This document shows positions 3,226 to 40,913 of a stretch of 41,104 nucleotides of DNA, piece after piece. A program made the translations under genes and the position numbers. This stretch comes from an uncultured Bacteroidales bacterium (GTDB lineage: Bacteria > Bacteroidota > Bacteroidia > Bacteroidales > Paludibacteraceae). The stretch is from NCBI GenBank assembly GCA_903830915.1, contig CAIKVR010000212.1, forward strand, positions 1-41,104, written 5' to 3'. The notes under the pieces were generated by a model. That model made no database searches, had not been told where the DNA came from, and worked only from the letters and a program-made list of their open reading frames with translations. Position 1 is the stretch's first letter; every line of letters starts with the position of its first letter.

Positions 3226-3236
3226 AACACTTGATA

Positions 3237-15691: not shown

Positions 15692-15786
15692 AAATTCATT
15701 TACTATTTTTTTTTACTATTTACAATTTGTTTCTTATCATTTGCTTATTATCTAAAATGGTAATTGGTCAATGATAAAATGGTCAA

Positions 15787-17250: not shown

Positions 17251-17251
17251 T

Positions 17252-17596
17252 TTATTTCAATAAAAAATCCTGTCGCATTGGACTAAATGTATCAATCAGA
17301 ATACCATCTTCGAGGCAAGTTGCACCATGAATTACATCAGGGTCGACATAAAATCCATCACCTGTACGAAGAATTTTTGTAACGCCATTTATGGTTACTT
17401 CAAACACTCCACTGACCACGTACGAAGTCTGTGAATGAATATGTTTATGCTGATAACCAACGCTTCCTGCCACAAATTTAATTTCGAGCAGCATAAGCTG
17501 TCCGTCGTAACCCATCAATTTGCGGGTTAATCCGCCATCTACCTCCACTGTCGGAAGCTCTGCTCCGAACAAGAAATTTTCACCTTTTGTTGTCAT
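17252..17596 (-). CDS. kdgF: KdgF, cupin that linearises unsaturated uronates
   Basis: A 114-residue single-domain cupin. KdgF turns 4,5-unsaturated galacturonate or 4-deoxy mannuronate/guluronate, released by pectate or alginate lyases, into the open ketone form (DKI or DEH). The cupin metal site is visible: H50, H52 and Q56 in HKHIHSQ, and H90 in VDPDVIHG. The HxHxxxQ spacing matches characterised KdgF proteins. The start is well placed, with an AT-rich leader and only 6 bp between the PL17 stop side and this gene. It lies between the PL17 exolyase and the MFS transporter, which fits a step just after monomer release. Small cupins can be mis-assigned, but the context makes this one secure. 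Confidence 0.9.
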   Translation of the reverse strand: MTTKGENFLFGAELPTVEVDGGLTRKLMGYDGQLMLLEIKFVAGSVGYQHKHIHSQTSYVVSGVFEVTINGVTKILRTGDGFYVDPDVIHGATCLEDGILIDTFSPMRQDFLLK

Positions 17597-17602
17597 AATT
17601 TA

Positions 17603-19801: not shown

Positions 19802-19803
19802 AC

Positions 19804-21528: not shown

Positions 21529-21555
21529 GTAATATTTATTTTAAAATCCAGATAA

Positions 21556-22731: not shown

Positions 22732-22746
22732 GAATTAAGTTGGTTA

Positions 22747-24303: not shown

Positions 24304-24305
24304 GA

Positions 24306-25019: not shown

Positions 25020-27376
25020 TTTATGATGACTTTAAAATTAGATTCTGACTGAGCTGTTCTCACTTTCACTATAAACAATCCGGATTGATTGAGTTTGATT
25101 GATTTTTCCTGAGTTTGAAACAACATTTTGCCAACACAATCGAAGATGGTTGTAACCGTTTTCTCATTGGTTTTAACGATTAAATTATTATCAGAAAGAG
25201 TCACATTTAAATTGCTCTTACTTGTTTGATCTACCGAAGAAGTGGTTAAAGAATTGATTACCTGATTCAGGAAAACGATCACTTCCGATTCCATTTGGGT
25301 ATTGTAAGCATCCGGGAAACCTCCGTGTAAACCTCCGGGAACTGTCAGAAATTTGTTTTTAACGCCGGCAGCCTGCAATTTTGCCTGTAATCGTACCGAT
25401 TGGGTGTAAGGTATCGTTGGGTCTGCATCACCGTGAATGATATAGGTTGGAGGCGTGTTGGCATCAATCATTTCGTAAGGCGAAAGTGATTTTACAAATA
25501 CATCATCACTATAGCGTGAACCTAACCAGGAAACCATGCCAGGATAAAAAGGAGCAAATGTCATTAAATCGGCAGCACCGTATTTGTCAATAACTGCCAT
25601 AACTTTAATCGTGCCTGCATATTGCTGACAATCATTATCATAGATTCGGTTGTTTTGCAAATAGCCACCGGTCAGAGCCAAATGTCCGCCTGCCGAACCG
25701 CCCTGAAATATGATTTTATTCCGGTCGATATGCAATTCGTCGGCATGATTCAGCAGGTATTGCATTGCTCCGCGCACATCTTCAACAGCTGCGGGTGCAA
25801 GAGTTTCGTATCTCATTCGGTATTCTACATTGGCAACGGCCCAACCCTGATTAAAATACATGCTGAAACCACCCTGTTCTTCTTTAGCACCACTTACCCA
25901 ACCGCCGCCGTGCATATTGATAACCACCGGAACAGGATTGCCGGCATCAGTAGGGTAATAAATATCCATACGGCAATTGGTGCTGTTCACGTTTTTGTAA
26001 ACCACGTCAAGCAAACCATTATAGTTTGAAGGATATGCCACTGAATGAATGGTTTGGAAATTTACTGTAATGGATTTTGATAAGTTCGATGGATTTCCCG
26101 CTTCGCAAAATGTTCCGGCAGAAATACTCAATGTGTAATTTTTATTAGCTGAACTTGTGGTTGTTAGTGCAACGGGCATGGTTACTGTTGTGCCAGAAAA
26201 TCTGCAACTATCAAGTGACAGCGAGACTCCATTCAGCAAAATAGTACCGCTACCTTTCTGAATATTTTTATTGAAAGTAAGCGTAATGGTCTCTTTTAAG
26301 TTTGAAAAACAAATTTCATTTTCAGCCGGCGAAGTACTTCGGAGTGTCAAATCCAGGGTTTCTTGCAGGGTTCGGGTTACAATTTTATAAACGTAAAGTC
26401 CGCTTCCGGTATTATTGGCAATGCGCAACTTGGTTTCATAATTTCTTGCCAGTGGAATCACATAAACACTATCGGGAGTTTTAATGGTAGTGTATGTTCC
26501 AACAGTTTGCCAGGCATTACTCACCCATTCATCCAACCTGAAACTCATAGCTGTAGTACCTGTAACAGCATGAATTTCCACCTCACCAACTGTCGTGAGT
26601 GTTGGAAATTCAATGGCACCCGATTGCGTATTTCTATCAACAGCAATACGGTTTGTATGCGTTTCACCGTTTGGGCAAGTCATGGTTCCGGTATACAAAT
26701 ATGCTTTCACCAAATTATATCCGTTTATAGTAGAAGATGGATAACTACCGGTTGTGTACGCAGTACTTGCAACTGTCCCCCATGTTCCATCTGCAAAATT
26801 GGTACTGATTTTAGCCACTGATGTTGGTGGTGTTACCGGTATGGTGGTTTGGTATTTCGACAGCTCAATATCATCCACCACAAACCAAGCTGCATTTACA
26901 AAATTTGGATCGGTAGATACGGTGGCATAAAAAATCACTTTAAAGGTTGATAAAGAGTCTTTTATTGGAATAGTAATTTTTGCAAATCCGGGCGATGCAG
27001 TTTTGTTTGGGAAATTAAAAGCGTTATATGTGTTTATAATTGTAGTGTCAGTGCCAATTACTTTTCCTACATACAGCGTCATGTAAGTTGCATTGGCATT
27101 TTTGGAAACATAAAATGAAAGTGTATCCGCTCCTGTAACCTGCGGACTTATCAGATTTTTACCGTATCTGCCCGAACCTGCGGGATCAAACTTGATGGCA
27201 TAAGCACCTGAAAAAGAAAGTCCGGTGTGATTTATTGATGTTGTAGAGCTACACTGACGTGTCCAACCAGAAGGAGATGAGCTGGCAAATCCTTCCTGAA
27301 AGTGATATTCAGAGGCAGCATTAAGTGACGAAAGTACAGAAAACGTAATAAGAAACATTATAAATACCTTTTTCAT
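25016..27376 (-). CDS. secreted modular alpha/beta-hydrolase esterase with T9SS tail
   Basis: A 786-residue secreted protein and first gene of TU1. Order: signal peptide (1-20); jelly-roll-like domain (about 21-175); the FxxGTWG domain shared with TU2 (about 190-336); SbsA-type Ig-like domain (about 345-442, SPAENEICFSN, GTILLNG); alpha/beta hydrolase (about 450-710); T9SS sorting domain (about 715-786). The hydrolase has the oxyanion HGGGW (489-493), S561 in GGSAGG, an Asp in HGDADPTIPY (650 or 652) and H684 in GGLHGGF. This is the BD-FAE/carbohydrate-esterase type layout, with RMDIYYP before it. It should act outside the cell on esters of the polymer. Its promoter region carries the TTTGG palindrome. 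Confidence 0.87.
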   Translation of the reverse strand: MKKVFIMFLITFSVLSSLNAASEYHFQEGFASSSPSGWTRQCSSTTSINHTGLSFSGAYAIKFDPAGSGRYGKNLISPQVTGADTLSFYVSKNANATYMTLYVGKVIGTDTTIINTYNAFNFPNKTASPGFAKITIPIKDSLSTFKVIFYATVSTDPNFVNAAWFVVDDIELSKYQTTIPVTPPTSVAKISTNFADGTWGTVASTAYTTGSYPSSTINGYNLVKAYLYTGTMTCPNGETHTNRIAVDRNTQSGAIEFPTLTTVGEVEIHAVTGTTAMSFRLDEWVSNAWQTVGTYTTIKTPDSVYVIPLARNYETKLRIANNTGSGLYVYKIVTRTLQETLDLTLRSTSPAENEICFSNLKETITLTFNKNIQKGSGTILLNGVSLSLDSCRFSGTTVTMPVALTTTSSANKNYTLSISAGTFCEAGNPSNLSKSITVNFQTIHSVAYPSNYNGLLDVVYKNVNSTNCRMDIYYPTDAGNPVPVVINMHGGGWVSGAKEEQGGFSMYFNQGWAVANVEYRMRYETLAPAAVEDVRGAMQYLLNHADELHIDRNKIIFQGGSAGGHLALTGGYLQNNRIYDNDCQQYAGTIKVMAVIDKYGAADLMTFAPFYPGMVSWLGSRYSDDVFVKSLSPYEMIDANTPPTYIIHGDADPTIPYTQSVRLQAKLQAAGVKNKFLTVPGGLHGGFPDAYNTQMESEVIVFLNQVINSLTTSSVDQTSKSNLNVTLSDNNLIVKTNEKTVTTIFDCVGKMLFQTQEKSIKLNQSGLFIVKVRTAQSESNFKVIIK

Positions 27377-27420: not shown

Positions 27421-27434
27421 TTTGGTCGACCAAA
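27421..27434. promoter_or_regulatory. operator-like palindrome upstream of TU1
   Basis: TTTGGTCGACCAAA is a perfect 14-bp palindrome starting 45 bp upstream of the TU1 ATG. It resembles the t-GGTc-n-GaCC-a pattern bound by FadR-subfamily GntR regulators, which include uronate regulators. Matching sites stand before TU2 and TU3. No regulator gene is in the window. Confidence 0.7.
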
Positions 27435-27488
27435 ATTACAATTAATGAATGGATTACAAAAGAAAATTGTGTTTTATTTCAAGATTTG

Positions 27489-27501
27489 TGTTGCAAAACA
27501 T
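27489..27501. promoter_or_regulatory. upstream motif TGTTGCAAAACAT of TU1
   Basis: An imperfect palindrome of form TGTT-N4-AACA, exactly 68 bp (start to start) beyond the TTTGG palindrome. The same motif at the same distance occurs before TU2 and TU3. It is probably a second protein-binding site; the protein is unknown. Confidence 0.6.
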
Positions 27502-27588
27502 GATTTTAAAGGCTCCATTTATTTTCATATTTATCTTAATCAGATTATATAATTATTATAAAGAAAGTACAGACCAATTAAACTGTTA

Positions 27589-27621
27589 CATCGGACGATC
27601 ATCGGACGGTCATCGGAGGAT
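27589..27621. repeat. three 11-bp direct repeats
   Basis: CATCGGACGAT, CATCGGACGGT and CATCGGAGGAT follow one another without gaps. They lie about 215 bp upstream of the TU1 start, between the TU1 regulatory sites and the TU2 terminator. Role unknown. Confidence 0.65.
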
Positions 27622-27676
27622 AACTAATATTACTATTATGTAAACACAGATGATTATATAGGGTAAATCAGATAAG

Positions 27677-27710
27677 AAGGGTTTCAACCTTTACGATTGA
27701 AACCCTTTTT
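27677..27710. terminator. terminator of TU2
   Basis: A perfect 11-bp stem, AAGGGTTTCAA (27677-27687) against TTGAAACCCTT (27697-27707), lies 26 bp beyond the stop of the last TU2 gene. The T-run is on the plus strand side, with a weaker T-rich tail on the minus strand, so it may work in both directions. Confidence 0.75.
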
Positions 27711-27735
27711 TAAAGATTCTAAGATACTATAATTT

Positions 27736-30486
27736 TTATTTTATTTGCACTTTTGCATTTGTTACCTGACCGTTTGCTGTAGTATGTTTCACAAAATAGA
27801 TTCCACTTGCTAAATTGGTTTTCAATTTGGTTACAGCCTGAGCTTCCAGCATTTTTGCGCCCTGAAGATTGTAAATAGCAATATTGCCAGTTTCAGAACA
27901 AATGAGTTCTTTATTTGAAAAATATAGCTGAATTCCTGATTCGGATTTATTAATTCCGGTTCCAAGGTCGGTAGTTGCCGGAGCAGATTTTGCAGATTCT
28001 GCTGAGTTGAAATAAGTAGTATTATCACCAATGGCAGTTACCGTAAAAGTGTATTCGGTTGCATAGAGTAATCCATTAATATTTACAGTCGTAGCATTTG
28101 GATCAGCCACGTTTACTGTTTTTACCAATGTAGTTCCCTGATATACTTTTATATCATAACTAAGTACATTTGTGACAACAGCTGTCCAATTTGCTGTAAT
28201 TCCTGTGGCTGAAACATTAGCAGAACCAACTACCGGTGTTGCAAGTTGGTGTCCCATAGTAAATTGTGCTGAAGCTACTGTTTGGTAAGAATCTGAATAA
28301 CTTACATCTCCATCACCTAAAGCTTTTACTTTAAAAATATAGGTTGAATCTGCTTGCAAACCTGTAATGCCTAAGTTTATAGTTGATTGACCACCTGTAG
28401 TTTTAGCAGTTGTTTTTAAGGTAGTAGTTTCGGTTTTTAATCCTGGAACTGTTGACGAAGTTATAACTTTAAATACATTTACTTGATAGTTAGTTCCATT
28501 TGCATCAACCGGTATCCAGTTAGCTGTGCAGGTGGTAGCTGCAATTGAACTTGCTACGCCAATAGTTGGAGCTGTTAACAATAAAGGAATAGTAGGACGC
28601 ATAGAAATTTGATAAAAGGTGTATACACCAGATGCAGGGTCAGTAATCTTGAATTTAGCATTTGTAAGTCCTCCTGTAGGAATAATATCAATCTGTTCTA
28701 AACTGTTACTTTCATTGTAATAGTTACCTGCCACTGGAGAAGCAGTATTCCCAGTACCTACAGGCACCCAATTTAAACCTCCATCAATCGATGATTGTAT
28801 AAAATACCATCTGCCTGCCGTAGCAGAAGAGTGAATTTCAATTTCGGCTACACTAGCTACTGTAGGTGTTGTTAATGCTCCAAAGTATTGTGCTTTATCC
28901 AGCATAAGTACATTGGAGTGAATTTCTCCTTTTGGTCCAATTGATGAATTTGTCTTAACTTGTGCATGAGTAAAATCCCATCCATTAACGGAGAAAACCG
29001 GATAGGTACCCATTGTGGGAGATGAACTCACAACTACGCCCCATGTACCATCGCTAAAGTTAGGATTTAATGACGCCGGATAAGTTGAAAGGGTTGAAAA
29101 CCCAGTTGAATTTCCTGATTCATTGGAATCAGAATAAGTAATTGCATCTCCCTTAGCGGTTACAGTATAGGTAAAACTGGTATTTAAATTTAAACCTGTT
29201 ATATCTAAACTGCTTGTAGTTTGACCTGTTGCAGTTACTGTTTTTGCTAAAGTTGGAGTAGTATTGTAAACTTTAACCACATAACTTCCTGCACCAGTCA
29301 CAGTACTCCAATTTGCAATAAAACTTTCCGAAAGAATATTCGTAGCAACACCTAATGTTGGTGTAGTTAATTGAGTAAAATTAGGAGTAGTAAAAGTGTT
29401 TGAGAGTGCCGTTTCCAGTGAATTGGCATTATTTACCTGATCGGTTGCTATGGCATAAACTTTATAAGTATAAGTTGTATTTGGTGTTAAACCAGTTACA
29501 ACCAAACTGGTTGTACTTGTTCCTCCTGTTGTGGTTTGAGATTTTAACAACGAAGAGCCATCACTGCTATAAACATTTACCGTATAGTTACTGGCAGCTG
29601 CTACGCTTGTCCAACTAGCTGTAAAATAGGTTGGTCCAACTGAAGCTGCGTCTACAATTGGTGAAGGAGCTGTGATTTTTGGAAGTGCAGAAATATAAGG
29701 TGCTACTGCATCAGACCAAGATGTACAAACTCTTGCACCACTTACATCGAAATATGCTTTATTTGACCCACTGGTACATTGTTTTATGTATTGTAAGGAA
29801 GTTCTGGCAGTTTTTCCATTTACAGTTCCATCATCAAATGCATAGACTGTAGCACCGGATTCACTTCCACCTATTGTTGGGTTAACATATAATGTTGCTT
29901 TTACCGGTGTTACTGAAAAGTCATATTTCATGACAAGAAAATAAGTTGTGTTAAGTGTTATAGGTGCCCCTAATTGAACATCACCATTTGTTGCGCTTCC
30001 CCTACTTACACCTAACTTAAGGTTTGGGGACGAATACGACGCACAAACATTTGCACCCAAATTCCCAGTAGAAGATTGATCTGATAAACCAATTATCTGT
30101 GAACCACTACCTCCATTTGCTGTACACTTATATAAAAATGCTAAATATACCACACCGGTTGTTATAGGACTTGCAGAAAACGATTTATAAGAGTAGGAAG
30201 ATGCTGAAGTAATACCAGTATAATTTACATACAATGATTTTCCAACTCCGGAATTTATCCATGTTGTACCTACAGCTGGATAAGTTAATGCAGTGGTGGT
30301 GGTTTTTGACCAGGTTGTTGAAGTTGCACCGTTAACAGTTGTCCAACCACTTGCTGCATCAGTTAATGTAGTACTTACTGCTGTGGGATTTGGGAATGTA
30401 GCTGGAAATGTTTCATCCAATAAAACCTGTGCATTTGCCATTATTGCTATCAGCATGAAGGCAAAAAATAAAGTAATTTTTTTCAT
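27736..30486 (-). CDS. T9SS-secreted modular protein: jelly-roll, four FN3, FxxGTWG domain
   Basis: A 916-residue secreted protein, last gene of TU2. Signal peptide 1-19; jelly-roll domain (about 21-262, with MKYDF and YVNPTIGGSE) closely related to the one in the first TU2 gene; FN3 domains at about 270-367 and 372-467; FxxGTWG domain (about 472-630); FN3 domains at about 635-742 and 745-838; T9SS sorting domain (about 845-916). Each FN3 shows the TANW and Y-x-(V/I)-x-(V/A) core strands and a G(L)xxxTxYT(Y/F) turn. No catalytic motif is visible, so it may bind polysaccharide or act as a surface scaffold for the lyases. A 13-bp-armed hairpin separates it from the preceding gene. Confidence 0.85.
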   Translation of the reverse strand: MKKITLFFAFMLIAIMANAQVLLDETFPATFPNPTAVSTTLTDAASGWTTVNGATSTTWSKTTTTALTYPAVGTTWINSGVGKSLYVNYTGITSASSYSYKSFSASPITTGVVYLAFLYKCTANGGSGSQIIGLSDQSSTGNLGANVCASYSSPNLKLGVSRGSATNGDVQLGAPITLNTTYFLVMKYDFSVTPVKATLYVNPTIGGSESGATVYAFDDGTVNGKTARTSLQYIKQCTSGSNKAYFDVSGARVCTSWSDAVAPYISALPKITAPSPIVDAASVGPTYFTASWTSVAAASNYTVNVYSSDGSSLLKSQTTTGGTSTTSLVVTGLTPNTTYTYKVYAIATDQVNNANSLETALSNTFTTPNFTQLTTPTLGVATNILSESFIANWSTVTGAGSYVVKVYNTTPTLAKTVTATGQTTSSLDITGLNLNTSFTYTVTAKGDAITYSDSNESGNSTGFSTLSTYPASLNPNFSDGTWGVVVSSSPTMGTYPVFSVNGWDFTHAQVKTNSSIGPKGEIHSNVLMLDKAQYFGALTTPTVASVAEIEIHSSATAGRWYFIQSSIDGGLNWVPVGTGNTASPVAGNYYNESNSLEQIDIIPTGGLTNAKFKITDPASGVYTFYQISMRPTIPLLLTAPTIGVASSIAATTCTANWIPVDANGTNYQVNVFKVITSSTVPGLKTETTTLKTTAKTTGGQSTINLGITGLQADSTYIFKVKALGDGDVSYSDSYQTVASAQFTMGHQLATPVVGSANVSATGITANWTAVVTNVLSYDIKVYQGTTLVKTVNVADPNATTVNINGLLYATEYTFTVTAIGDNTTYFNSAESAKSAPATTDLGTGINKSESGIQLYFSNKELICSETGNIAIYNLQGAKMLEAQAVTKLKTNLASGIYFVKHTTANGQVTNAKVQIK

Positions 30487-30529
30487 AAGAGTTGAATTTT
30501 ATTTGATTAATAATTATTTTAAAGTTATA

Positions 30530-30563
30530 GTTGGTCAGAATCAATTAATAGATTCTGACCAAC
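30530..30563. repeat. inverted repeat with GTTGGTC arms between TU2 genes
   Basis: A perfect 13-bp stem, GTTGGTCAGAATC (30530-30542) against GATTCTGACCAAC (30551-30563), loop AATTAATA. It lies just after the stop of the 1261-residue protein gene and about 45 bp before the ATG of the next gene. It could be an intra-operon mRNA hairpin or half-sites of the TTTGG operator. Confidence 0.75.
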
Positions 30564-30571
30564 ATTCTGAT

Positions 30572-33500
30572 TTATTTTATGATCATTTTTGTAGTTAGTA
30601 ATTTGCCATCCAATGCTGTAAAGCGAACAATGTAAATTCCTGAATTCAGATTAACTGATAAGTTGGTTGCAAGTTTTGCTTCCAGTACTTTAGCACCCTG
30701 AAGATTGAATACCTCAATATTTCCTGTTTCAGAAGACCTGATTTCTTTACCTGATACAATTAATGAAATAACCCTTTGGGTATTACTAAGCCCGGTTCCG
30801 TCTGTAATAACAATATTTGATTTTTCAGACTCATTTGAATCAAAGTAGGTAGTATTGTTACCTAAGGCTGTTACTGTGAAAGTATATTTAGTTGCGTATT
30901 TCAACCCAGTTATAATTGCAGTTGTTGCAATTGAATCATTTACGGTTATTGAATCAACCAAACTTGAATCCTGATATGTTTTAATTAAATAACCACCAGA
31001 TGCATGTAAAACAACTGACCAATTGACTTTAATTTCTGTGGTTGAAACTGCTGCTCCGGTAGGTATCGATGGCGTTTCAAGTTTATGAGCCATTGTAAAC
31101 GGAGCAGAAGCAGCCGATTCATTAGAATTAGCATAAATTGTATCGCCTATTGCTTTAACAGTATACGTATAAGTTGAATCTGCTTGCATTCCGCCAATAT
31201 TCAGACTGGTAGAATTTTGTCCTTCTTTAGTAGTCGCTGTAAATATTATCGCTGTTCCTTTATAAACTTTTACTTCGTAGTTTGTTGCATTTGGCACAAT
31301 TGCTGTCCAGTTGGCAGTAAAAGTTGTTAGCGTCACATTACTTGCTATCCCAACAATAGGTGTTGCCAATTGCTTGCCCATTGTAAACGGAGCTGATGCT
31401 GCTGATATGTAAGAATCTAAATAATTCACATCGCCATCGCCTAAAGCTTTCACCTTGTAGGTATAAGTAGAATCAGGCTGCAATCCTGAAATAACCAAAC
31501 TTGAAGTAGCCTGTCCACCAGTAGTTTTTGCGGTAACCTTCAGTGTTGTACCTTTATAAACTTTCACCTCATAGTTTGTTGCATTCGCATCCACAGGGGT
31601 CCAGTTGGCAGTGAAAGTTGTAGCTGCAATTGCACTTGCTGCTCCAATTGTTGGAGTTGCAAGAGTAGTTGTTAGCGTTGTATGGGAGCTTATATGATAA
31701 AATGTAAACGCTCCTGAACTAGGGTCAGTGATTTTGAATTGAACATTTGAGAGACCTCCAGTTGGTATAATATCAATTTGTTCCAAATTAGCACTTACAT
31801 TGTAATAGGTACCAGCTACAGGAGTAGCAGTATTTCCCGGACCTACCGGTATCCAATTTAAACCTCCATCTATAGATGATTGAATCAAATATTGTCTTCC
31901 TGCAGTAGCAGAAGAATGAATTTCAATTTCAGCAACACTTGCAACTACAGGAGTTACAATTACACCAGAATTGGTTGTTTTATCCAACATAAGCACATCG
32001 GGATGAGCTTCGCCTTTTGGTCCACTTGTTGTATTTGTTTTAACTAGAGCATGAGTCAAATCCCAGCCATTTGCAGAGAAAACTGGATATGAACCAAGTG
32101 CAGGAGATGCAGTAGCAACTAACCCCCAAGTACCATCGCTAAAGTTTGGATTTAGAGCACTTACTGTTAGGGCTAATGTTTTTGCAACAGCCGATGAAGC
32201 TGATGGATCTGAATTTGTATAACTAACACTATCACCCACAGCAATTACTTTATACGTATAAGTTGTACCCATTGCAAGTCCGGTTAGAATAACACTTGAA
32301 GCAGTCTGACCACTAACTTTAGTTGTAGTTACCAAATTGGATGTTAAATATATCATTATTTCATAACCTGTTGCGTTTGCTGTTGGAGTCCAATTGGCAG
32401 TGAAACCGTTAGCCGTAATATCGGTTGCAGTTCCAACAATTGGAGTTGGAAGTCCAAGTGTATAAAAACTTGCAGAAGCAGTTGATGGATTTGAATTGTC
32501 ATAATTGATAGCATCGCCTACAGCAGTAACTGTATAGGTATAACTTGTTCCGGTTTTTAAGCCTCTAATTGCCGCACTGGTAGAAGTTTGACCAGCAACT
32601 GGGGTAGTATTAACCAATGTTATTCCGCCCTCATATACTTTAACACTGTAACCGCCTGATGCATTTGTAACTGTAGACCAGTTTGCCGTAAATCCATTGG
32701 TTCCTATAAGAGTGGCTACACCTACAGTTGGTGAATCTAATTTTGGCAATGCAGCATAATAAATTGTATTGCCAGCAATTAAGGCATCTGTTGTTGCAGT
32801 AAATAAACTTTTATTGGTAAGCGAAAAATCAAGTGTAGCAGCAATTGTATATATTGGAGTTGTGGTAATAGGAGTTGTTGTTCCCGTAGGTGGTGTTGCA
32901 AATCCACCCACATAACAATCAGTAATTGTCGTACCGAATGTCAAAGGTTGTGTTAATGCAACCGTACTGAAAAGACTATTCTTTATAGCGATTGCGCCAC
33001 CTAATCCCTTGATATAAATAGGACTTGTTTTATCAACTAAAATATTGTAAAATGTACAATGATCGTATGTTTGAGTCCCAACATTAGCTGCGGTATTGTA
33101 AACTACACTTGCTCTGGAAGCAACTAAAGCATTATTACTGAAAGTACAGTTTTTAATATTGATATTCGTTGTGCCGGAAGCTGAATTATTATATAAAATT
33201 CTTCCACCACATTTATTAAATATACTGCCTTGAATATCCATTACCTGCGTGGTAGAAACTCCATCCATTCTGATTGTACCATTTCCGGATACATTTAGCA
33301 TATCATGAAAATAACAATTACTAATATAAAGATTTGTATTAGTAGCAGCAGTAGTAGAATAAAAGGCTATAGGCTGACCCGATCCACCAGCATTTATCCC
33401 ATTAAACTCAAGTCCAGTTAATTTAATTGTTAAACCAGGTGTCGCTGTGTAAATAATATTGCAGGTACCACTTGTAGTAGTACTGTTAATTTTCAAAATG

Positions 33501-34357
33501 GGTTTACTCGCAAGTCCTGCAGCAGCCTTTATTGTGGTGTTTCGGACAAGTGTGTTATTGTTTGTAGAAGCACCAGTATTAAAAGTATATGCACCTCCAG
33601 AAGTGGTTAGTTCATAAATATCGGCCGCTCCTCCTTTTAGGTCGCTGTTAAGAAGTGCAGTTTCTGTATCGGCATATTGCATTGTAAAAGAACCTGTGGA
33701 AGTTGCAGTTGTAAATGATGCCGAATTTGCTGATGCAACAGAACTTGCATAAGTCACACCATCACCAATAGCAGTTACCGTATATGAATAAGTCGTGTTT
33801 GGAGTTAATATCGCAGATATTGCTAACAATGCAGAAGTTGCTCCTGTTACAGTTTTTGGAGAACCGGCAACTAATGAATTTGCTCCATCATATACGTTTA
33901 TTGAATAACTTGTTGCATTAGCCACAGCTGTCCAGTTGGCAGTGAAACCGGTCAGAGTCATTCGGCTTGCAGTCTCAACTGTAGGCGTAGTTAGCTGTAT
34001 TAGTGTTGTTATTATAGCAGAAGGAGTTGATTCCGCAGAATTTGTAAAAATTGTACTATCGCCAACTGCGATTACAGTATAAGTATAAGCAGTTCCCTGA
34101 AATAAACCCGTTATTATTGTTGTTGCAACTGTAGCTCCGGCAACCGGCACTGAAACAACTAATGCAGGTGTGCTGTCATAAACATTTACAATGTAACTTG
34201 ATGCATTTGCAATGGCAGTCCAGTTAGCGGTAAATCCTACTGTTGTAGGTAAAGTGGCAGTACCTACAGTAGGAGCTACCAACTGTGTTTGTGCAGAGAC
34301 TTTTACAGTAACAGTAAATAATAGTATTGCAAATAATAAAGTAATATTTTTCATCAT
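30572..34357 (-). CDS. T9SS-secreted protein: seven FN3 domains, beta-helix (DUF4957/DUF5123-like) and FxxGTWG domain
   Basis: A 1261-residue secreted protein. The start at 34357 (MMKNITLLFAILLF; 34354 is equally possible) is chosen because it gives a normal signal peptide. A longer frame adds 19 hydrophilic residues and crosses a hairpin. Order: FN3 (about 24-118, 120-217); right-handed beta-helix (about 222-535) resembling the DUF4957/DUF5123 pair of Bacteroidota polysaccharide loci (NTTIKAAAGLASKPIL, then repeated NCYFHD, NCTFSNN, HCTFYN turns); FN3 (about 536-634, 635-728); FxxGTWG domain (about 735-895); three FN3 (about 897-1185); T9SS tail (about 1190-1261). The helix turns resemble PL6 but I see no Lys/Arg pair, so I do not call it a lyase. 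It could grip the polymer. Confidence 0.82.
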   Translation of the reverse strand: MMKNITLLFAILLFTVTVKVSAQTQLVAPTVGTATLPTTVGFTANWTAIANASSYIVNVYDSTPALVVSVPVAGATVATTIITGLFQGTAYTYTVIAVGDSTIFTNSAESTPSAIITTLIQLTTPTVETASRMTLTGFTANWTAVANATSYSINVYDGANSLVAGSPKTVTGATSALLAISAILTPNTTYSYTVTAIGDGVTYASSVASANSASFTTATSTGSFTMQYADTETALLNSDLKGGAADIYELTTSGGAYTFNTGASTNNNTLVRNTTIKAAAGLASKPILKINSTTTSGTCNIIYTATPGLTIKLTGLEFNGINAGGSGQPIAFYSTTAATNTNLYISNCYFHDMLNVSGNGTIRMDGVSTTQVMDIQGSIFNKCGGRILYNNSASGTTNINIKNCTFSNNALVASRASVVYNTAANVGTQTYDHCTFYNILVDKTSPIYIKGLGGAIAIKNSLFSTVALTQPLTFGTTITDCYVGGFATPPTGTTTPITTTPIYTIAATLDFSLTNKSLFTATTDALIAGNTIYYAALPKLDSPTVGVATLIGTNGFTANWSTVTNASGGYSVKVYEGGITLVNTTPVAGQTSTSAAIRGLKTGTSYTYTVTAVGDAINYDNSNPSTASASFYTLGLPTPIVGTATDITANGFTANWTPTANATGYEIMIYLTSNLVTTTKVSGQTASSVILTGLAMGTTYTYKVIAVGDSVSYTNSDPSASSAVAKTLALTVSALNPNFSDGTWGLVATASPALGSYPVFSANGWDLTHALVKTNTTSGPKGEAHPDVLMLDKTTNSGVIVTPVVASVAEIEIHSSATAGRQYLIQSSIDGGLNWIPVGPGNTATPVAGTYYNVSANLEQIDIIPTGGLSNVQFKITDPSSGAFTFYHISSHTTLTTTLATPTIGAASAIAATTFTANWTPVDANATNYEVKVYKGTTLKVTAKTTGGQATSSLVISGLQPDSTYTYKVKALGDGDVNYLDSYISAASAPFTMGKQLATPIVGIASNVTLTTFTANWTAIVPNATNYEVKVYKGTAIIFTATTKEGQNSTSLNIGGMQADSTYTYTVKAIGDTIYANSNESAASAPFTMAHKLETPSIPTGAAVSTTEIKVNWSVVLHASGGYLIKTYQDSSLVDSITVNDSIATTAIITGLKYATKYTFTVTALGNNTTYFDSNESEKSNIVITDGTGLSNTQRVISLIVSGKEIRSSETGNIEVFNLQGAKVLEAKLATNLSVNLNSGIYIVRFTALDGKLLTTKMIIK

Positions 34358-34401
34358 AATTCGATTAATAGTTTGAAGATGGAAAAAGATTTTAGCGATG
34401 T

Positions 34402-34432
34402 GTTGGTCAGACAATTATTATGTCTGACCAAC
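34402..34432. repeat. inverted repeat with GTTGGTC arms between TU2 genes
   Basis: A perfect 12-bp stem, GTTGGTCAGACA (34402-34413) against TGTCTGACCAAC (34421-34432), loop ATTATTA. It lies 31 bp after the stop of the first TU2 gene and 44 bp before the preferred ATG of the next. It shares the first 10 bases of its arm with the hairpin at 30530. Confidence 0.78.
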
Positions 34433-34463
34433 TTTAATTCATCGAATTCTACCTTCTTTATTC

Positions 34464-36293
34464 TTATTGAATTAAAACTTTTTTAGTCAACATATCGCCG
34501 TTATTAGTTTTGAGCCGGACAATATAAATTCCTGCTGCCAGATTTGTAATACGATGGTTTTCAATGGCATCCTTGTAAATCAATATTCCCTGTAGGTTAT
34601 ATATACTTAATACTCCCGGTTGTGAACTGACAATTGTTTTTCCGGTACTGTAAAGTGATATCTTACTACTATTTTCTGACAAACCATTAATTACTCCGGA
34701 TACTTTTACTAATCCAACAGCGAAATAGCCACTACCTGTATTGATAATTCTTAATTTGGTAGCATAATTATTATTGAAGTTTACATTTATAATAGTATCT
34801 TTATTATTCAGAGTATCTTTTGCAGAGAATAATGAATGATCTGTTTTCCATGTACCATCAGCAGTCAGTTCCTGAACTAAGAATGTTCTGCCCGGACCGC
34901 TGGTCCACACATGCAATTCCATACTTCCAACTTGTTTCATAGAAGGCAGTGTCAAATACGAACCTCCAACGGCAGTCGATTTATCCAATTTAATCCAGTA
35001 TTTAATGGTGTCTTTCGCAGCTGGATTGTTTGGTAAGTACATACCGATATGTTTGTTGCTACTGTTCAAACCATTCGATATATAATAATTTCCGTTTGAA
35101 AATGAAGGATATGACAATGCAAGAGGTTCAGTAGAACTGTTTGGGTAAACTTGTCCCCAGGTACCATTGCTGAAATCCGGTTGAACTTCCATCACACCAT
35201 CTAAAGTTGAAAAACCTACCGAAGCGGCTGAGGGAGTGGAATTACCTGTGGTAGTTCCATCACCAATTGCCTGAACTTCATAGGTGTAAGTTGTGTTAGA
35301 AACTAAACCGCTAATCTGAACAGATGAAGCAGCCTTATCAACTACAGTGGTTTTACTGAATAAACTTGTTCCATTATAAACCAGTATGTTATATCCATTT
35401 GCATCCGCTGTTGGTGTCCAGTTAGCCCAGAAACTTTCTGCCTCAACGCTTGAAGCAGAACCATTGGTCGGAGTTGCAACTTTAGGAAGTGCAGCTGGTT
35501 GAACTGCATCTTTCCACGATTGACATACTCTGATTCCACTTACATAATAGTTCGCTTTATTTGATCCTTTATTAACTAACATAACATGTTGTAAGGCTGT
35601 TCTGTATACCTCAGCTGTATTTACAGTTGCGTTATCCATCGCATATTCTGTTGGTTCTGAAGCACTTCCAATACCAGGATTTACATATAAATAAGCTATA
35701 TGAGAAGTAAAATCATATTTCATAACAATGAAATTCACTGTTCCATAACTGAATTCTGTTTTACCATTCACAATATCTGCAGATCCACCACCTGCGCGGG
35801 TAAGACCCAATATGCAAGTAGAACCCGTTGAACCCGGTCTAATCCAAAGACACATAGAAGAGCGTTGAACAGAGTCAGTTAAACTTACAGTTTGACCCTG
35901 ACTTCCACCCGGTGCTACAGGTTGGAATAAAAATGAAACATAAATAACACCGGAGTTTATCGGAGTGTTTGAAAACGGTTTTGAAGTTAATAATGCAGCT
36001 CCTGGAGGTGTTTTTGATGCTGAAACTCCCACAAATACGTTGTGTAATGCAGCTCCTTGTCCTGATAAGTAAGGTATACCGTTAAGATCTGCATAACTCA
36101 AACCTTGTTTGTCAAGAATACGATAATCAGTCACATTTGGTTCCAAAGTATTTCCAGAATAATTTGTCCAACCATTTACCGTGGACATATTATCGGTTGT
36201 TGGAAAATCAAAAAAAGTCTCATCCAATAAGACTTGCGCTTTGCCGTAGATCGCTATAAAACAAAGCATTAAAATAAGAGTAGTTTTTTTCAT
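34464..36293 (-). CDS. T9SS-secreted modular protein: jelly-roll, FN3, FxxGTWG domain
   Basis: A 609-residue secreted protein, first gene of TU2. Signal peptide 1-19; jelly-roll domain (about 21-264, VLLDETF, SGVIYVSFLF, MKYDFTSHIAYLYVNPGIG, VSGIRVCQSW); one FN3 (about 269-365); FxxGTWG domain (about 370-530, here FSNGTWG at 374-380, with a longer insert before VGSMELHVWT); T9SS sorting domain (about 538-609). It has the same plan as the last TU2 gene with fewer FN3 repeats, so the two probably arose by duplication. No catalytic residues were recognised. It may be a surface glycan-binding protein standing in for the missing SusD-type proteins; that is a guess from position. Confidence 0.83.
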   Translation of the reverse strand: MKKTTLILMLCFIAIYGKAQVLLDETFFDFPTTDNMSTVNGWTNYSGNTLEPNVTDYRILDKQGLSYADLNGIPYLSGQGAALHNVFVGVSASKTPPGAALLTSKPFSNTPINSGVIYVSFLFQPVAPGGSQGQTVSLTDSVQRSSMCLWIRPGSTGSTCILGLTRAGGGSADIVNGKTEFSYGTVNFIVMKYDFTSHIAYLYVNPGIGSASEPTEYAMDNATVNTAEVYRTALQHVMLVNKGSNKANYYVSGIRVCQSWKDAVQPAALPKVATPTNGSASSVEAESFWANWTPTADANGYNILVYNGTSLFSKTTVVDKAASSVQISGLVSNTTYTYEVQAIGDGTTTGNSTPSAASVGFSTLDGVMEVQPDFSNGTWGQVYPNSSTEPLALSYPSFSNGNYYISNGLNSSNKHIGMYLPNNPAAKDTIKYWIKLDKSTAVGGSYLTLPSMKQVGSMELHVWTSGPGRTFLVQELTADGTWKTDHSLFSAKDTLNNKDTIINVNFNNNYATKLRIINTGSGYFAVGLVKVSGVINGLSENSSKISLYSTGKTIVSSQPGVLSIYNLQGILIYKDAIENHRITNLAAGIYIVRLKTNNGDMLTKKVLIQ

Positions 36294-36324
36294 GATAATA
36301 ATTTATTAAGTTGGTATATAATTT

Positions 36325-36376
36325 CTTGTAGTATTTTTGGTCGACCAGTAATTTGGTTGACCAAAAATACTACAAG
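36325..36376. promoter_or_regulatory. large operator-like inverted repeat upstream of TU2
   Basis: Perfect 18-bp arms, CTTGTAGTATTTTTGGTC (36325-36342) and its complement (36359-36376), surround a 16-bp centre. Nested inside are two TTTGG palindromes: TTTGGTCGACCAGT (36336-36349) and TTTGGTTGACCAAA (36352-36365), centres 16 bp apart. The near one starts 43 bp upstream of the TU2 ATG. It is much too far from the TU3 stop to be that gene's usual terminator. Confidence 0.75.
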
Positions 36377-36419
36377 CTTGAACAATAAAAAAATAATTTC
36401 AGCAATATTTTTCAAAAAG

Positions 36420-36432
36420 TGTTGTAAAACAT
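36420..36432. promoter_or_regulatory. upstream motif TGTTGTAAAACAT of TU2
   Basis: It starts exactly 68 bp beyond the start of the distal TTTGG palindrome (36352). It matches the motifs at 27489 and 40884. Confidence 0.6.
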
Positions 36433-36839
36433 AAAATTGGCCAGCCCCGCAAGTTCAAACTTAGACATTCTTACTAAATTTTAGATATGTTCTCTGAATT
36501 TATCATTTCCTTATTGCAAGTCAATAAGACAGGAGGGTGAATTGAATCGTGTTATGTATTCAGATTTTAAAAATATTGTTCATCAATGATTTGCTGCAAT
36601 AAAAATGTCCTGTATTTAGATCGGAGAAATACCAAACTGGAATGTTAGATTCTCTGGCTTTCATTAGATTTGGATACTCCTTTTATTATCAATGAGATGA
36701 AGTGTTATATATAATTGCCAGAGTTGGTATTTATTTGATTGAGCAAAAACGGTAAGTTTGTTAAAAATGCATCATTACAAGAATATAGTATTTAAAGCGA
36801 ATAGATAAACCTCACAGTATTTTTATTAAAAAAGCTATA
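36433..36839. other. gene-free stretch between TU3 and the TU2 regulatory region
   Basis: About 400 bp with no supportable reading frame, no clear hairpin terminator for TU3 and no repeat. I see nothing else in it. Confidence 0.5.
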
Positions 36840-39800
36840 TTAGTGAATAATAATTTTTTGAATAACTTCCTGTCCTGTCTCGTTTGAAAAGTGAACAATA
36901 TACAATCCGGTATCTAAATTCGTAATCAGCTTGTTTGTATTTTTCAACCGTAATAGAAGGACGCCCTGCGTGCTGTAAATTCTGAATGTTCCTTTTTCGG
37001 ATGCAAGAATACTCTTGTCAACAACCCGTAACGAAAGAACAGATGAATTTAATAATTGGGTTGTAATAGATGTAACTGCAACTTTTTCAACCGCATCTGC
37101 CCAGGTATTTGAAATCCGTACACCACCAATGTTTAGATTTTGTGAAACTGTTCCCTGCGCTCTCGACCATAGATTGCTGAGTTTTGTTCGGATGGTTGCT
37201 GAAGTATTATCAGCTATTTCTGGTGAGGATGGTTCTGAGTCACCAAGTTTTGGATTGATATAAACCGACGACGTTGATGTTGAAAAATCATATTTCAACA
37301 CAATCAGATTGGTAGCTCCAACAGTTAACGAAGTAGGAGAGCTCGCATATTTATAATCGGCACTGGCGGTTGAACCTCGCACAGTACCTAATTTGTAGAA
37401 ACCGGTAGACGTTTTTCCAATCAATACTTTTGGTCCGGCACTGGTTCCATCGGCCATCCCGAATGCTTCCTGATTGGTAGATGATACGTTGGCGTTTACT
37501 TTGAGTAAAAAGCTTAAATATAATACGCCGGAACTGATGGAAGTAGCACTGAATGGTTTGTAGGCTTTAAAATCAGAAACTGTGGTTCCTGATAAAAGGC
37601 TAATAGTCATCGATTTTCCAAGTGCCGAAAGGATATAAGTTCCATATTCATCCGAATAGCTTAAAGTTCCACTTGTAATGGTACGTGTGCCAGTTCCGGT
37701 GGTGATAGTTCCTGCTTCGAGCCACGATCCCTGTCCTGTAAGAGGTCCAACTGTATAATCAAAAATTTCGTTGTACAATCCGGTGGTTGGAATAATGGAT
37801 GTTACGGTCAATGTTTGTACAACATCCGATGCTGCGTTGAAAATTGCATTTCCAACTTGTGATGCAGTAATTGTGACAGTTCCCGGACCAACTAAATGAA
37901 TATTCCCATTTACAATTGTTGCAACGTAAGTATTTGAACTTGTATACGTAACAGCCAAACCTGAACTGGCGGTTGCACCCGGATTAAAATCGGCATCACC
38001 ATAAACTTTTGCAGTCAAACCCGGAAAAGTAATGATTTGATTTGTGCCATTTACGGTAAGCGTTTGACGAACAGAAATGGCAGATTTATAGGTATCATTG
38101 CCCGCTTGCGAAGCAGTAATAATAGCTGTTCCTGCACCTACGATATGAATATTCCCATTTACGATAGTTGCCACTCCGGTGTTTGAACTTGTGAGTGTAA
38201 CGGCTAATCCGGAACTCGCCGTAGCCACAACACTAAAATCGGCATCGCCCGGGACTTTTGTAGGGATAGCCTGAAAAGTAATGGTTTGGCTAGTTTTAGA
38301 ATTGTCAATTAATTGAATGGTATTTAAACTTTGAGCCAAATTTACCAAGGCATTGGAACTCAATATAGCCTGACCATCGAGTGGAGCATACAATTCCAAG
38401 CTTGATTTCAGCATTTTGCCGCTTGACAAACCGGTAATTTCCATCTGATTCATCCCTGAACGGTAGAAAAACCAGTTGCGGTAATCAACCGATGCAGGGG
38501 CATTGGAGTCGAAAAGATTAAATGCCGTAGCCAGCAGTTTTTCATTGATAGTATTCACAGCAACGCCATCGCAATATAGAATAGTAAAACCTTGTGCATA
38601 ATAATGACTCAGGGTTGCGTTGTGCCACTGACCATCGTTCATAATTGTTGTGCCGGTTATAAATCCTCCGTTTGGCGATTGGTAAGTTAGAAATCCTGTA
38701 GTGGCATCAATGGATACAATTCCATCAACAGCACTTTGTGGAAAACTCAGAATCGATCCGGCACCGGTAGTTTTAAAATCAACCGAAGTTGTGAACGAAT
38801 GAAAAGTATTGTCGGGTGTAAAAGAAAGCTGATGGTTGGCAGTCGTCTTATTCAGCGATAAATAAGTGCCTGATTGTCTTGTCGGTTGGGCTTTTCCGGC
38901 ATTTAAAGCATCAAAAAGTGTGGGCACAATGCTGTAAGATAATTCGGTATGACCGTCGTCGTTGGGATGCGAATTGTCGTGCTGATAAAGCAAAGGCCAT
39001 TTCCCTGTTCCATCGTCAATACATCCCAACAGATTGAAACTGGGTACATCCCATTCGTGAATCAGCATATCTATTTGTTTCACATAGTTGTATTCCGTTA
39101 AGCCAAAATCGGCTCGTGGATACACATTGGCAATAATCGGTATTTTTCCCACCGAACGGGCTTTGGCAATAAGCATCAGCATATTGGTTTTAAACTGATC
39201 GTAAATGGTTTGTCCACCGGTAATGATGCCTTCATTTCCCAATGACAGCGCGTAAACAACATACAAACTGCCATCATTTAATAAATCTTTATCCCACCGT
39301 GCCAACACATCTTTGGTGTCATTTCCACCAATGGAGATGTTTGAAACCACCCAATTATTCTGACTTGTTCCTGAAGTGTAGCGTTGATTCAGCATTTGAC
39401 CGTATTTATAAGCATAACCTATGTAGGATGTTGAACCCAAACTGTTTGTAACTGTTACCGAAGCACCTTGCCCGTTGGAAACCGAAGAACCCATTTGAGA
39501 GATTTTAAACGGACTGTTTGGATAAAGTTTGTAGGAATTTGTACCTAAATAAGCCCGAACAACCCCTGAGCCCGAAATTGTCGACGGAATAGGGCTACCT
39601 CCCACAATCAATGTATCGGCTTTCGATCCCGCTCCAAAAATTGTGGCTGTACCTGCATTTTGTGAACTATAGAAATTAAATGTTCCGGTGTTATTGAGCG
39701 TTGTTCCTGTTTCAAAAACGCCGGTATTTATACCAATTTTGTCGGGTGGAGTGTTCAGCAATAGGGCGGTAGATATGTTATCGCCATTGCTTGTAGCTGT

Positions 39801-40754
39801 ACCCGAAAGATATAAAGCCGAAAGTTGGTTACTCACCGTGATTTGTTTTTGACCGGAAAGAACCACGCCACTTTGGGTAATGGAAGCGGTAATCGTAACT
39901 GTTCCGTTTTTCTTAGCTGACAGTAATCCGTTTGCATCAATAGTTGCCACCGTAATATCGTTCACGCTCCAATTGTAGGAGTTGGGTGTGGCGTCGGCAG
40001 GCAGAACAGTTGCTTTCATCTGCGATTGACCTCCGGTGTTTGGAATATCGTTTCCGCTTACAGTAATGGATGTGGTACTCACGTAAGGTACCGTATATTC
40101 TTCCACTTTCAGCGAATTGATGTAGGCATAGCCACCCGAGAAAGGTGTTAGCGTTATATTTATTTCAGCATTTGCATCAGGATAGATTAGCGTGGTTTCG
40201 AGGATAGTAGTTTTATTTCCATTGTAACCTGTACCACCAAGGTTAGTACCCGACGATTGTAATGTACCCGCAGCAGTCGTTAAACCAACTAGGTTGAACT
40301 GGCTGATTCGGGCAGGATCGGCAGTGCTTCGACTGTTGAAAAAAAAGAATTTGTAGGCTTTAGTTTTAGTTAGTCCGGTAAGTTTAAAACTACCTGAAGT
40401 GGAGGTGTAGAAATAATCCTGTGTAACAGTGGGAATGGCAAAGATGCCTATTTTTGAAGCTTCGGGTACAGTTAACCCACCGGATAGAAGTCCATTAGTC
40501 GAAAATTTGGTGACAATCTTCAATGCATAAGCTGTAGCTGTATTGGTATTTGTCAGCAATCCTGATACTGTGGCTGAAGCCGACGGATCAATTATATTAT
40601 TCCAGTAATTAGCGTTTATATCCGGATTACTAGTACTATTTCCATTTGTAACATCGTTTGGCCCAAAGTCGAATAGGAGCGTTTTGTCTAAAGTTTGAGC
40701 GCTAAGACTGAAAAGAGAAAAGCTAATAAAATTCAGAAGTAGAAGTTTTTTCAT
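36840..40754 (-). CDS. T9SS-secreted 1304-residue mosaic SGNH hydrolase (putative carbohydrate esterase)
   Basis: The start at 40754 (MKKLLLLNFISFSLFSLSAQ) gives a normal signal peptide; an upstream in-frame ATG at 40796 would add 14 residues and abut the operators. Order: malectin-like carbohydrate-binding domain (about 21-222, LLFDFGPNDV, YAYINSLKVEEY); BIG2-type Ig (about 226-308); SGNH hydrolase (about 415-625) with GSSVSNGQG near 423, SLGNEG near 507 and D593/H596 in DNSHPNDDGH; LamG-like domain (about 640-815); two near-identical Ig-like repeats (about 820-985, SSGLAVT-x-TSSNT, VGxGT); a jelly-roll domain like those of TU2 (about 990-1225); T9SS tail. A 9- to 10-residue SGNH motif set makes hydrolase activity likely. 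The ester bond is unknown. It is the only gene of TU3. Confidence 0.83.
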   Translation of the reverse strand: MKKLLLLNFISFSLFSLSAQTLDKTLLFDFGPNDVTNGNSTSNPDINANYWNNIIDPSASATVSGLLTNTNTATAYALKIVTKFSTNGLLSGGLTVPEASKIGIFAIPTVTQDYFYTSTSGSFKLTGLTKTKAYKFFFFNSRSTADPARISQFNLVGLTTAAGTLQSSGTNLGGTGYNGNKTTILETTLIYPDANAEINITLTPFSGGYAYINSLKVEEYTVPYVSTTSITVSGNDIPNTGGQSQMKATVLPADATPNSYNWSVNDITVATIDANGLLSAKKNGTVTITASITQSGVVLSGQKQITVSNQLSALYLSGTATSNGDNISTALLLNTPPDKIGINTGVFETGTTLNNTGTFNFYSSQNAGTATIFGAGSKADTLIVGGSPIPSTISGSGVVRAYLGTNSYKLYPNSPFKISQMGSSVSNGQGASVTVTNSLGSTSYIGYAYKYGQMLNQRYTSGTSQNNWVVSNISIGGNDTKDVLARWDKDLLNDGSLYVVYALSLGNEGIITGGQTIYDQFKTNMLMLIAKARSVGKIPIIANVYPRADFGLTEYNYVKQIDMLIHEWDVPSFNLLGCIDDGTGKWPLLYQHDNSHPNDDGHTELSYSIVPTLFDALNAGKAQPTRQSGTYLSLNKTTANHQLSFTPDNTFHSFTTSVDFKTTGAGSILSFPQSAVDGIVSIDATTGFLTYQSPNGGFITGTTIMNDGQWHNATLSHYYAQGFTILYCDGVAVNTINEKLLATAFNLFDSNAPASVDYRNWFFYRSGMNQMEITGLSSGKMLKSSLELYAPLDGQAILSSNALVNLAQSLNTIQLIDNSKTSQTITFQAIPTKVPGDADFSVVATASSGLAVTLTSSNTGVATIVNGNIHIVGAGTAIITASQAGNDTYKSAISVRQTLTVNGTNQIITFPGLTAKVYGDADFNPGATASSGLAVTYTSSNTYVATIVNGNIHLVGPGTVTITASQVGNAIFNAASDVVQTLTVTSIIPTTGLYNEIFDYTVGPLTGQGSWLEAGTITTGTGTRTITSGTLSYSDEYGTYILSALGKSMTISLLSGTTVSDFKAYKPFSATSISSGVLYLSFLLKVNANVSSTNQEAFGMADGTSAGPKVLIGKTSTGFYKLGTVRGSTASADYKYASSPTSLTVGATNLIVLKYDFSTSTSSVYINPKLGDSEPSSPEIADNTSATIRTKLSNLWSRAQGTVSQNLNIGGVRISNTWADAVEKVAVTSITTQLLNSSVLSLRVVDKSILASEKGTFRIYSTQGVLLLRLKNTNKLITNLDTGLYIVHFSNETGQEVIQKIIIH

Positions 40755-40798
40755 AATTTCCTTGTATTTATATGATTTAAAAAGTTTTTTTACCATAC

Positions 40799-40829
40799 AA
40801 TTGGCATACCAATTATTTGGTCAACCAAA
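40799..40829. promoter_or_regulatory. paired operator-like palindromes upstream of TU3
   Basis: AATTGGCATACCAATT (40799-40814) and TTTGGTCAACCAAA (40816-40829) have centres 16 bp apart, exactly as in TU2. The near site starts 45 bp upstream of the TU3 ATG. The first closely resembles the AATTGGTATACCAATT operator of E. coli UxuR, a FadR-subfamily GntR repressor of hexuronate genes. Confidence 0.7.
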
Positions 40830-40879
40830 AGTAATTTCTGTGTTTTTAATCTCAAAATTATTTAAGAGTTTTTTTTACA

Positions 40880-40913
40880 AATATGTTGTAGAACATATTA
40901 TTGGTTGACCAAT
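40880..40913. promoter_or_regulatory. upstream motif of TU3 and a third TTTGG-type palindrome
   Basis: TGTTGTAGAACAT (40884-40896), inside the palindrome AATATGTT-GTAG-AACATATT (40880-40899), starts exactly 68 bp beyond the start of the distal palindrome (40816). ATTGGTTGACCAAT (40900-40913), another copy of the operator pattern, follows directly. Confidence 0.65.

Follow-up and report, generated by a model that had tools for sequence, protein, structure and literature searches.

Putative operators of an AusR-type GntR repressor, paired with a Crp-type site, at alginate genes of an uncultured Bacteroidales bacterium

The window analysed here is a 41,104-nucleotide stretch of contig CAIKVR010000212.1 from a Paludibacter-like Bacteroidales bacterium (assembly GCA_903830915.1, hereafter G000; 4.74 Mb in 436 contigs, fragmented and 87% complete). 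On its minus strand lie three transcription units (TU1 to TU3), each preceded by palindromes of the type TTTGGT-NN-ACCAAA. We propose, with a probability of about 0.8, that these palindromes are operators of a single AusR-type repressor with GntR and FCD domains, encoded on contig C213, and that genes at the front end of polymer use are probably also activated by a Crp-like protein. We read the palindromes as operators because of the distribution of the sites, their overlap with promoters, their fixed spacings and the co-occurrence of site and regulator orthologue. The overlap is new: the first TTTG of the operator doubles as the end of the -7 box TAnnTTTG, in a fixed register.

A first-pass annotation had picked out such palindromes by eye, placed the nearest one 43-45 bp before the ATG of each unit, and attributed all three units to one uronate-responsive GntR-type regulator. 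The palindromes lie where it put them, with exact copies of TTTGGTNNACCAAA at 27421, 36352 and 40816 and weaker copies at 36336 and 40800. The spacing holds for TU1 (45 bp) and TU2 (43 bp), while that of TU3 is 46 bp if translation starts at 40754. A third copy before TU3 was missing from that annotation, so that TU1 has one copy, TU2 two and TU3 three:

27421..27434, minus strand: TU1 operator TTTGGTCGACCAAA, single copy, an exact match to the pattern
36352..36365, minus strand: TU2 primary operator, TTTGGTCAACCAAA on the gene strand
36336..36349, minus strand: TU2 second operator, ACTGGTCGACCAAA on the gene strand, 16 bp downstream of the primary
40816..40829, minus strand: TU3 primary operator, TTTGGTTGACCAAA on the gene strand
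40800..40813, minus strand: TU3 second operator, ATTGGTATGCCAAT on the gene strand, 16 bp downstream of the primary
40900..40913, minus strand: TU3 third operator ATTGGTTGACCAAT, ATTGGTCAACCAAT on the gene strand, 84 bp upstream

At the corresponding -84 position of TU2 (36436-36449) stands a half-decayed copy of the TU3-type third operator, CGGGGCTGGCCAAT on the gene strand.

Scanning the window with up to two mismatches revealed no enrichment (8 sites against 5.0 expected, with at least 8 in 11 of 100 shuffles), and a scan at chance level is by itself no evidence for operators. Across the genome, where counts were compared with those of the reversed pattern in the same sequences, exact TTTGGTNNACCAAA occurred in six places, three of them the sites above, and its reversal in none; WTTGGTYRACCAAW occurred in 11 places against 0. 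Counted from the zero-mismatch rows of a one-mismatch scan, there were 13 exact WTTGGTNNACCAAW palindromes, 12 of which lay outside open reading frames (ORFs) beside genes for uronate-polymer breakdown, surface proteins or a GntR regulator, and the genes downstream of sites formed a functionally coherent set for uronate-polymer use. The first-pass annotation had suggested looking before kdgK and kdgA, SusC/SusD and a GntR gene; exact or near-exact sites were found at all three, and very few elsewhere:

C213: site before the only FCD/GntR gene found
C377:7898: site before a locus with SusC, SusD, polysaccharide lyase family 6 (PL6)-type and PF05426 genes
C377:27065: site before a unit of PL6-type and sulfatase genes
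C377:35862: site before a gene for a protein of carbohydrate-binding module family 96 (CBM96)
C407:274: site before a kdgK-kdgA-like unit of PfkB kinase, 2-keto-3-deoxy-6-phosphogluconate aldolase and major facilitator superfamily (MFS) transporter genes
C314: site before the gene of a 2034-aa fn3 protein
C185: site between divergent heparinase-like and leucine-rich-repeat genes

The one-mismatch scan of the whole genome came close to background (189/195 against 163/169 in the control), and one of its copies (C62:1593) sits between unrelated genes resembling ETF-QO and a DEAD helicase. A looser pattern, TTGGYNNRCCAA, matched 45 places and its control 18; the extra places that were checked (L030-L038) lay inside ORFs or adjoined unrelated genes, and the extras were dropped.

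The second line of evidence is the promoter. The -7 consensus of the Bacteroidota sigma factor, sigma-ABfr, is TAnnTTTG (PMC7366714), and boxes of this kind run into the primary operator of all three units:

27431..27438, minus strand: TU1 -7 box TAATTTTG, its TTTG common to the operator
27457-27461: TU1 -33-like element TTTTG
36362..36369, minus strand: TU2 -7 box TATTTTTG, overlapping the operator
40826..40833, minus strand: TU3 -7 box TACTTTTG, overlapping the operator
40853-40857: TTTTG of TU3

The -33 TTTG is clear at TU1 and TU3, and the TU2 sequence is only T-rich there. In G000, TAnnTTTGGT was present at 9 of 10 site-bearing promoters. For a wider count we took the window and loci L023-L029, L049-L090 and L179-L235, which gave 95 distinct sites; six were dropped for having no gene or an ambiguous one, leaving 89 oriented sites of the genus. 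Positions -4,-3 were TA on the gene side of 62 of these and on the other side of 13, and TTG at -26/-27, the expected -33 place, was found on the gene side of 33 against 10 on the other side. When the 89 sites were merged into 73 promoters, TAnn was in register with the operator at 62. The TU2 operator pair lies inside a 23-bp inverted repeat (36325-36376, 96% complementary, arms 6 nt apart), through which the second operator has a box like TATTTTTG in the opposite direction, possibly marking a divergent or face-to-face promoter.

With the usual spacing, the transcription start would fall under a dimer covering the -7 box. Since the operator is fused to that box, any protein bound there should obstruct the promoter, and the overlap is, as far as the letters tell, the anatomy of a repressor site. 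Some regulators of the FadR subfamily activate transcription, and the third copy at -84 falls in activator-like territory; the same protein might accordingly be an activator, or work both ways. We consider this improbable, because the in-register overlap at 62 of 73 promoters leaves no room for polymerase and because AusR, the published relative, is a repressor (PMC7874173).

The regulator itself is the third line. The first-pass annotation had looked to a GntR-type gene in the genome, and G000 yielded one FCD/GntR gene (C213:8174-8890; genome 87% complete), with the same site upstream; its product has an N-terminal GntR winged helix-turn-helix domain (61.7 bits, cut-off 27) and a C-terminal FCD domain (87.4 bits, cut-off 24.3). 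It was tried as UxuR, ExuR and NanR and rejected for each, with NCBIfam scores of 55.6 bits against a cut-off of 442, 56.1 against 396 and, for the best match, NanR, 113.4 against 260. FadR-subfamily operators are described as A/T-rich palindromes with TKGT/ACMA boxes (PMC4494728), and TTTGGT-NN-ACCAAA agrees with this, including the 2-3 nt between the boxes. In the accessible portion of that comparative study of GntR regulators, the FadR-subfamily set holds no Bacteroidetes member.

We compared 200 genomes of the family, counting as orthologues proteins that matched the C213 protein with E 1e-20 or better. The 38 genomes with an orthologue held 144 strict sites, or 3.8 each (reversed control 15), whereas the 162 without held 62, or 0.38 each (control 30). 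At least three sites occurred in 17 of the 38 and in 1 of the 162, and the association had a Mann-Whitney p of about 5e-19, uncorrected for relatedness; 79 genomes had a match in the family-wide site scan. The 681 kb around the genes of 43 regulator relatives held 22 strict sites, and the control gave 0. A full match lay in the 350 bp before the regulator gene in 12 of the 43 and an 11-of-12-letter match in eight more, and in 11 of the 43 the order regulator, site, SusC was conserved, once with a GH2-like ORF in between. Together, site distribution, orthologue co-occurrence and this gene order largely support the first-pass proposal that one GntR-type regulator controls all three units.

Several observations weigh against the repressor reading. 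One of the 13 exact WTTGGTNNACCAAW palindromes (C358:18964) lies within an ORF that by eye resembles a pseudouridine synthase, the -7 register was present at only 1 of 6 promoters of PL17 genes, and the C185 site between divergent genes has no in-register -7 box. No strict site was found in G351, G395 and G405, which have an orthologue; conversely, G475 has 8 sites and G205, from an order-wide search, 7 strict sites (0 control) with orthologue undetected, and in G205 perhaps another GntR protein uses the same site. Among the 43 relatives, 23 had neither a full nor an 11-of-12-letter match in the 350 bp before the gene, two of them with less than 40 bp of sequence there. In G000 the regulator gene adjoins ald and not alginate genes. 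Finally, the genomes are related and do not count as independent, and each locus was chosen for its site or regulator.

The two genomes with sites but no detected orthologue (G475 and G205), the incompleteness of G000 and the LacI-family regulators predicted for Bacteroides uronate regulons (PMC3878776) would suit a different protein, for example a uronate regulator of LacI or UxuR type, binding the palindrome with the FCD gene a mere neighbour. We give this little credence: GGT-NN-ACC with its 2-nt gap fits the FadR-subfamily consensus (PMC4494728), the site co-occurs strongly with the FCD orthologue, and the regulator-site-SusC order is conserved. That the palindromes are chance matches or promoter repeats without an operator role, as the unenriched two-mismatch scan of the window and the exact copy in a coding region might suggest, appears next to negligible, because exact copies outnumber those of the control both genome-wide and near relatives, the right half ACCAAA, though no promoter element, is conserved, the spacings of 16, 67 and 84 bp recur, and the orthologue co-occurrence in the 200 genomes contradicts it. 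In 56 regions from 11 of 12 site-rich genomes that we had picked (G475 being the one left out), 13 of 75 sites fell inside naive ORFs of at least 90 aa.

Spacing was counted over 78 composite sites from all fetched loci. A second operator copy stood exactly 16 bp downstream in 28 of them (with five more at 17 and three at 18), and a copy exactly 84 bp upstream in 9. In 42, a dyad of the form ATGTT-N4-AACAT started exactly 67 bp upstream of the operator. We first took it for the site of an unknown regulator, and comparison with the Bacteroides Crp motif changed that: it agrees letter for letter with the Crp/BT4338 reference TATGTTnTAnAACATA, the predicted consensus being wwwTATGTTnTAnAACATAwww (Ravcheev et al. 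2013, PMC3878776). All three units have it:

27488..27501, minus strand: TU1 Crp-type dyad ATGTTTTGCAACAC, starting 67 bp upstream of the operator, 9 of 10 dyad letters
36419..36432, minus strand: TU2 Crp-type dyad ATGTTTTACAACAC at -67, 12 of 14 letters
40883..40896, minus strand: TU3 Crp-type dyad ATGTTCTACAACAT at -67, 14 of 14 letters

In Bacteroides, predicted Crp/BT4338 sites accompany those of the local sugar regulators AraR, XylR and FucR (PMC3878776), and growth on several sugars, glucuronate and polygalacturonate among them, depends on BT4338 (PMC5061871). G000 has six genes with cyclic-nucleotide-binding (cNMP) domains, one of them full-length and Crp/Fnr-like; the Crp/Fnr-like protein on contig C23 matches 2gau with E 9.9e-62.

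The dyad divides the promoters into two classes, which were defined after the pattern had been seen. Among SusC, lyase, esterase, sulfatase and fn3/domain-A genes (front end), 31 of 34 promoters had it, as did 4 of 5 promoters of regulator genes; none of the 26 belonging to kdgK (12), kduI (8) and PL17 (6) genes did. The remaining promoters were those of CBM96 genes (0 of 2), a gene of glycoside hydrolase family 88 (GH88; 0 of 1) and unassigned genes (2 of 5). In the window, the PL17 and KdgF genes are internal members of TU1, whose promoter therefore serves them too.

That the dyad is instead the site of another alginate-specific regulator is unlikely, though a stronger contender than the alternatives above. 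In the fetched sequence, dyad and TAnnTTTG occurred together at a 49-nt gap only where an AusR-type site was present, in 6 of 6 cases in G000 and 32 of 33 in relatives, the 33rd having a one-mismatch site; one would not expect such exclusivity of a global factor, but these sites were what the loci had been chosen for. Moreover, near the best Crp-like gene, on C23, there are only weak dyads (11 of 14 letters). The letter-for-letter match to the predicted Crp/BT4338 consensus (PMC3878776) and the cNMP-domain genes of G000 favour a Crp-type activator.

From these features we postulate the following mechanism. The C213 repressor, which would also control its own gene, would bind as a dimer over the -7 box and the presumed transcription start of the sigma-ABfr promoter and shut out RNA polymerase; the DNA predicted to be covered is TTTGGTYRACCAAA together with its +16 copy. 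A second copy at +16, and sometimes a third at -84, would reinforce repression. Breakdown of alginate or another uronate polymer would yield a catabolic intermediate that frees the repressor, most likely 2-keto-3-deoxygluconate (KDG), the effector that pathway logic favours; the regulator is probably KDG-responsive. TU1, TU2, TU3, the SusC/SusD/PL6 locus, the PL6-sulfatase unit, the kdgK-kdgA-MFS unit and the regulator gene would then be opened together. Genes for polymer attack and surface proteins probably also require a Crp/BT4338-type activator at -67, so that these front-end genes would need both the polymer signal and a lack of better sugars, and KDG-catabolism genes the polymer signal only. 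Binding, repression, effector and Crp identity are thus all predictions.

A broader proposal is that alginate use in the genus is run by promoters with two keys and a fixed layout (dyad at -67, operator merged with the -7 box, copies at +16 and -84), where front-end genes take both keys and KDG-catabolism genes the repressor key alone, and that the TU2 and TU3 proteins are new alginate-handling surface proteins exported by the type IX secretion system (T9SS). We regard it as tentative, at somewhat less than even odds.

The primary study of the AusR regulon is reportedly that of Dudek et al. 2020 (doi 10.1093/nar/gkaa533). AusR of Zobellia galactanivorans is a GntR-family repressor of alginate genes that is released by alginate breakdown products (PMC8286568, PMC7874173, PMC8073546) and binds operators present singly, doubly or in threes (PMC7874173). 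The system described here resembles it in having a GntR regulator with single, double and triple operators at alginate genes, a likeness drawn from published descriptions of AusR. It differs in belonging to Bacteroidales, in metagenome assemblies of freshwater and sediment type, instead of marine flavobacteria, in the Crp-type dyad at a fixed distance, in the inclusion of kduI-kduD and sulfatase/fucosidase genes, and in a regulator gene beside ald. We therefore describe it as a predicted Bacteroidales counterpart of the AusR regulon, with a partner site of Crp type. Regulator relatives from flavobacteria (38-41% identity) have PL17, KdgF, SusC/D, KdgK and KdgA genes around them, with the regulator among alginate genes in the Flavobacterium and Frigoriflavimonas loci; one flavobacterial locus has 4 exact palindromes (0 control), and the other two have none exact. 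The operator TTGGT-NN-ACCAA and the FCD and GntR domains recall Escherichia coli UxuR and other FadR-subfamily members with a 2-nt GT/AC gap, whereas the NCBIfam equivalog score for UxuR is far under its cut-off. E. coli lac combines CRP activation with a local repressor, and the arrangement proposed here follows the same logic, with a global activator upstream and a repressor over the promoter; unlike in lac, sigma factor and promoter are of another kind and the -7 box takes in letters of the operator. The Bacteroides Crp (BT4338) regulon likewise pairs the dyad TATGTTnTAnAACATA with local sugar regulators (PMC3878776), but here the dyad is joined to an alginate GntR operator, at exact spacing and at front-end genes only. 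Alginate is absent from the main text of the Bacteroides Crp paper (PMC3878776). A literature search, with most subscription papers beyond reach, found no paper describing such an architecture in Bacteroidales.

If correct, these predictions make a testable regulon out of a motif first noticed by eye, one that lies beyond the marine flavobacteria of the AusR description, and state to the base which promoters would be repressed and which would require a Crp-like activator as well. The division into front-end and back-end promoters makes a clean hypothesis on how bacteria living on polysaccharides might integrate a polymer signal with catabolite control. The common operator would tie several uncharacterized surface proteins to alginate use, a guilt-by-regulation reason to link their domains with alginate binding or deacetylation.

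The three units encode the following:

14939..27376, minus strand: TU1, ATG at 27376; BD-FAE esterase, GDSL protein, SASA esterase, PF05426 lyase, PL6-type (Chondroitinas_B) protein, PL17-type oligoalginate lyase, KdgF-like cupin, MFS transporter and short-chain dehydrogenase/reductase (SDR)
27736..36293, minus strand: TU2, ATG at 36293; fn3 proteins of 609, 1280 and 916 aa with common domains A and B
36840..40754, minus strand: TU3; Big_2 and GDSL-like protein with a C-terminal domain A and a T9SS tail over the cut-off

TU1 is, by homology, an alginate unit: the best PDB match of its PL17-type lyase has E 2e-242 and the next, a named PL17, E 5e-205, while its PF05426 lyase, whose family we take to be PL38, is close to solved alginate lyases (E 1.3e-127). 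In TU2 the first, 609-aa protein has a T9SS tail over the cut-off and the 916-aa protein a sub-threshold one. The longest ORF of TU3 starts at 40796, 4 bp from an operator copy; promoter anatomy favours the internal ATG at 40754, which is therefore probably the start. Domain A, common to TU2 and TU3, shows 33-41% identity to its first member, and domain B is common to TU2 and the TU1 esterase; neither had a significant match in a PDB sequence search (best E 0.99 and 0.17). The first-pass view that TU2 belongs with the alginate system gained support from G498, G447, G495 and G475, in which a TU2-like gene comes first after the operator. Copies of domains A and B also occur on C375 of the same genome, with no site in the 20 kb fetched, so these domains are not exclusive to the regulon.

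In relatives (L185, L191, L200, L205 and others) a KduI-SDR-DUF4861 unit has the operator in front of it too, at 8 promoters, and the regulon thus seems to extend to unsaturated uronates beyond alginate. The site on C185 (L028) adjoins a gene at 2072-4711 for a protein like the heparin lyase HepB (478 bits against a cut-off of 600); together with GH88, sulfatase and fucosidase genes on C377, it suggests that a second substrate may be a sulfated uronate polymer. At the end of the window (41058-41104) lies a perfect 16-bp inverted repeat, CGAGTTCCAACTCGCG and CGCGAGTTGGAACTCG with 15 nt between, which may be a repeat element or a terminator, and a short CATCGGACG-like repeat occupies 27590-27625, between the TU1 promoter region and the end of TU2.

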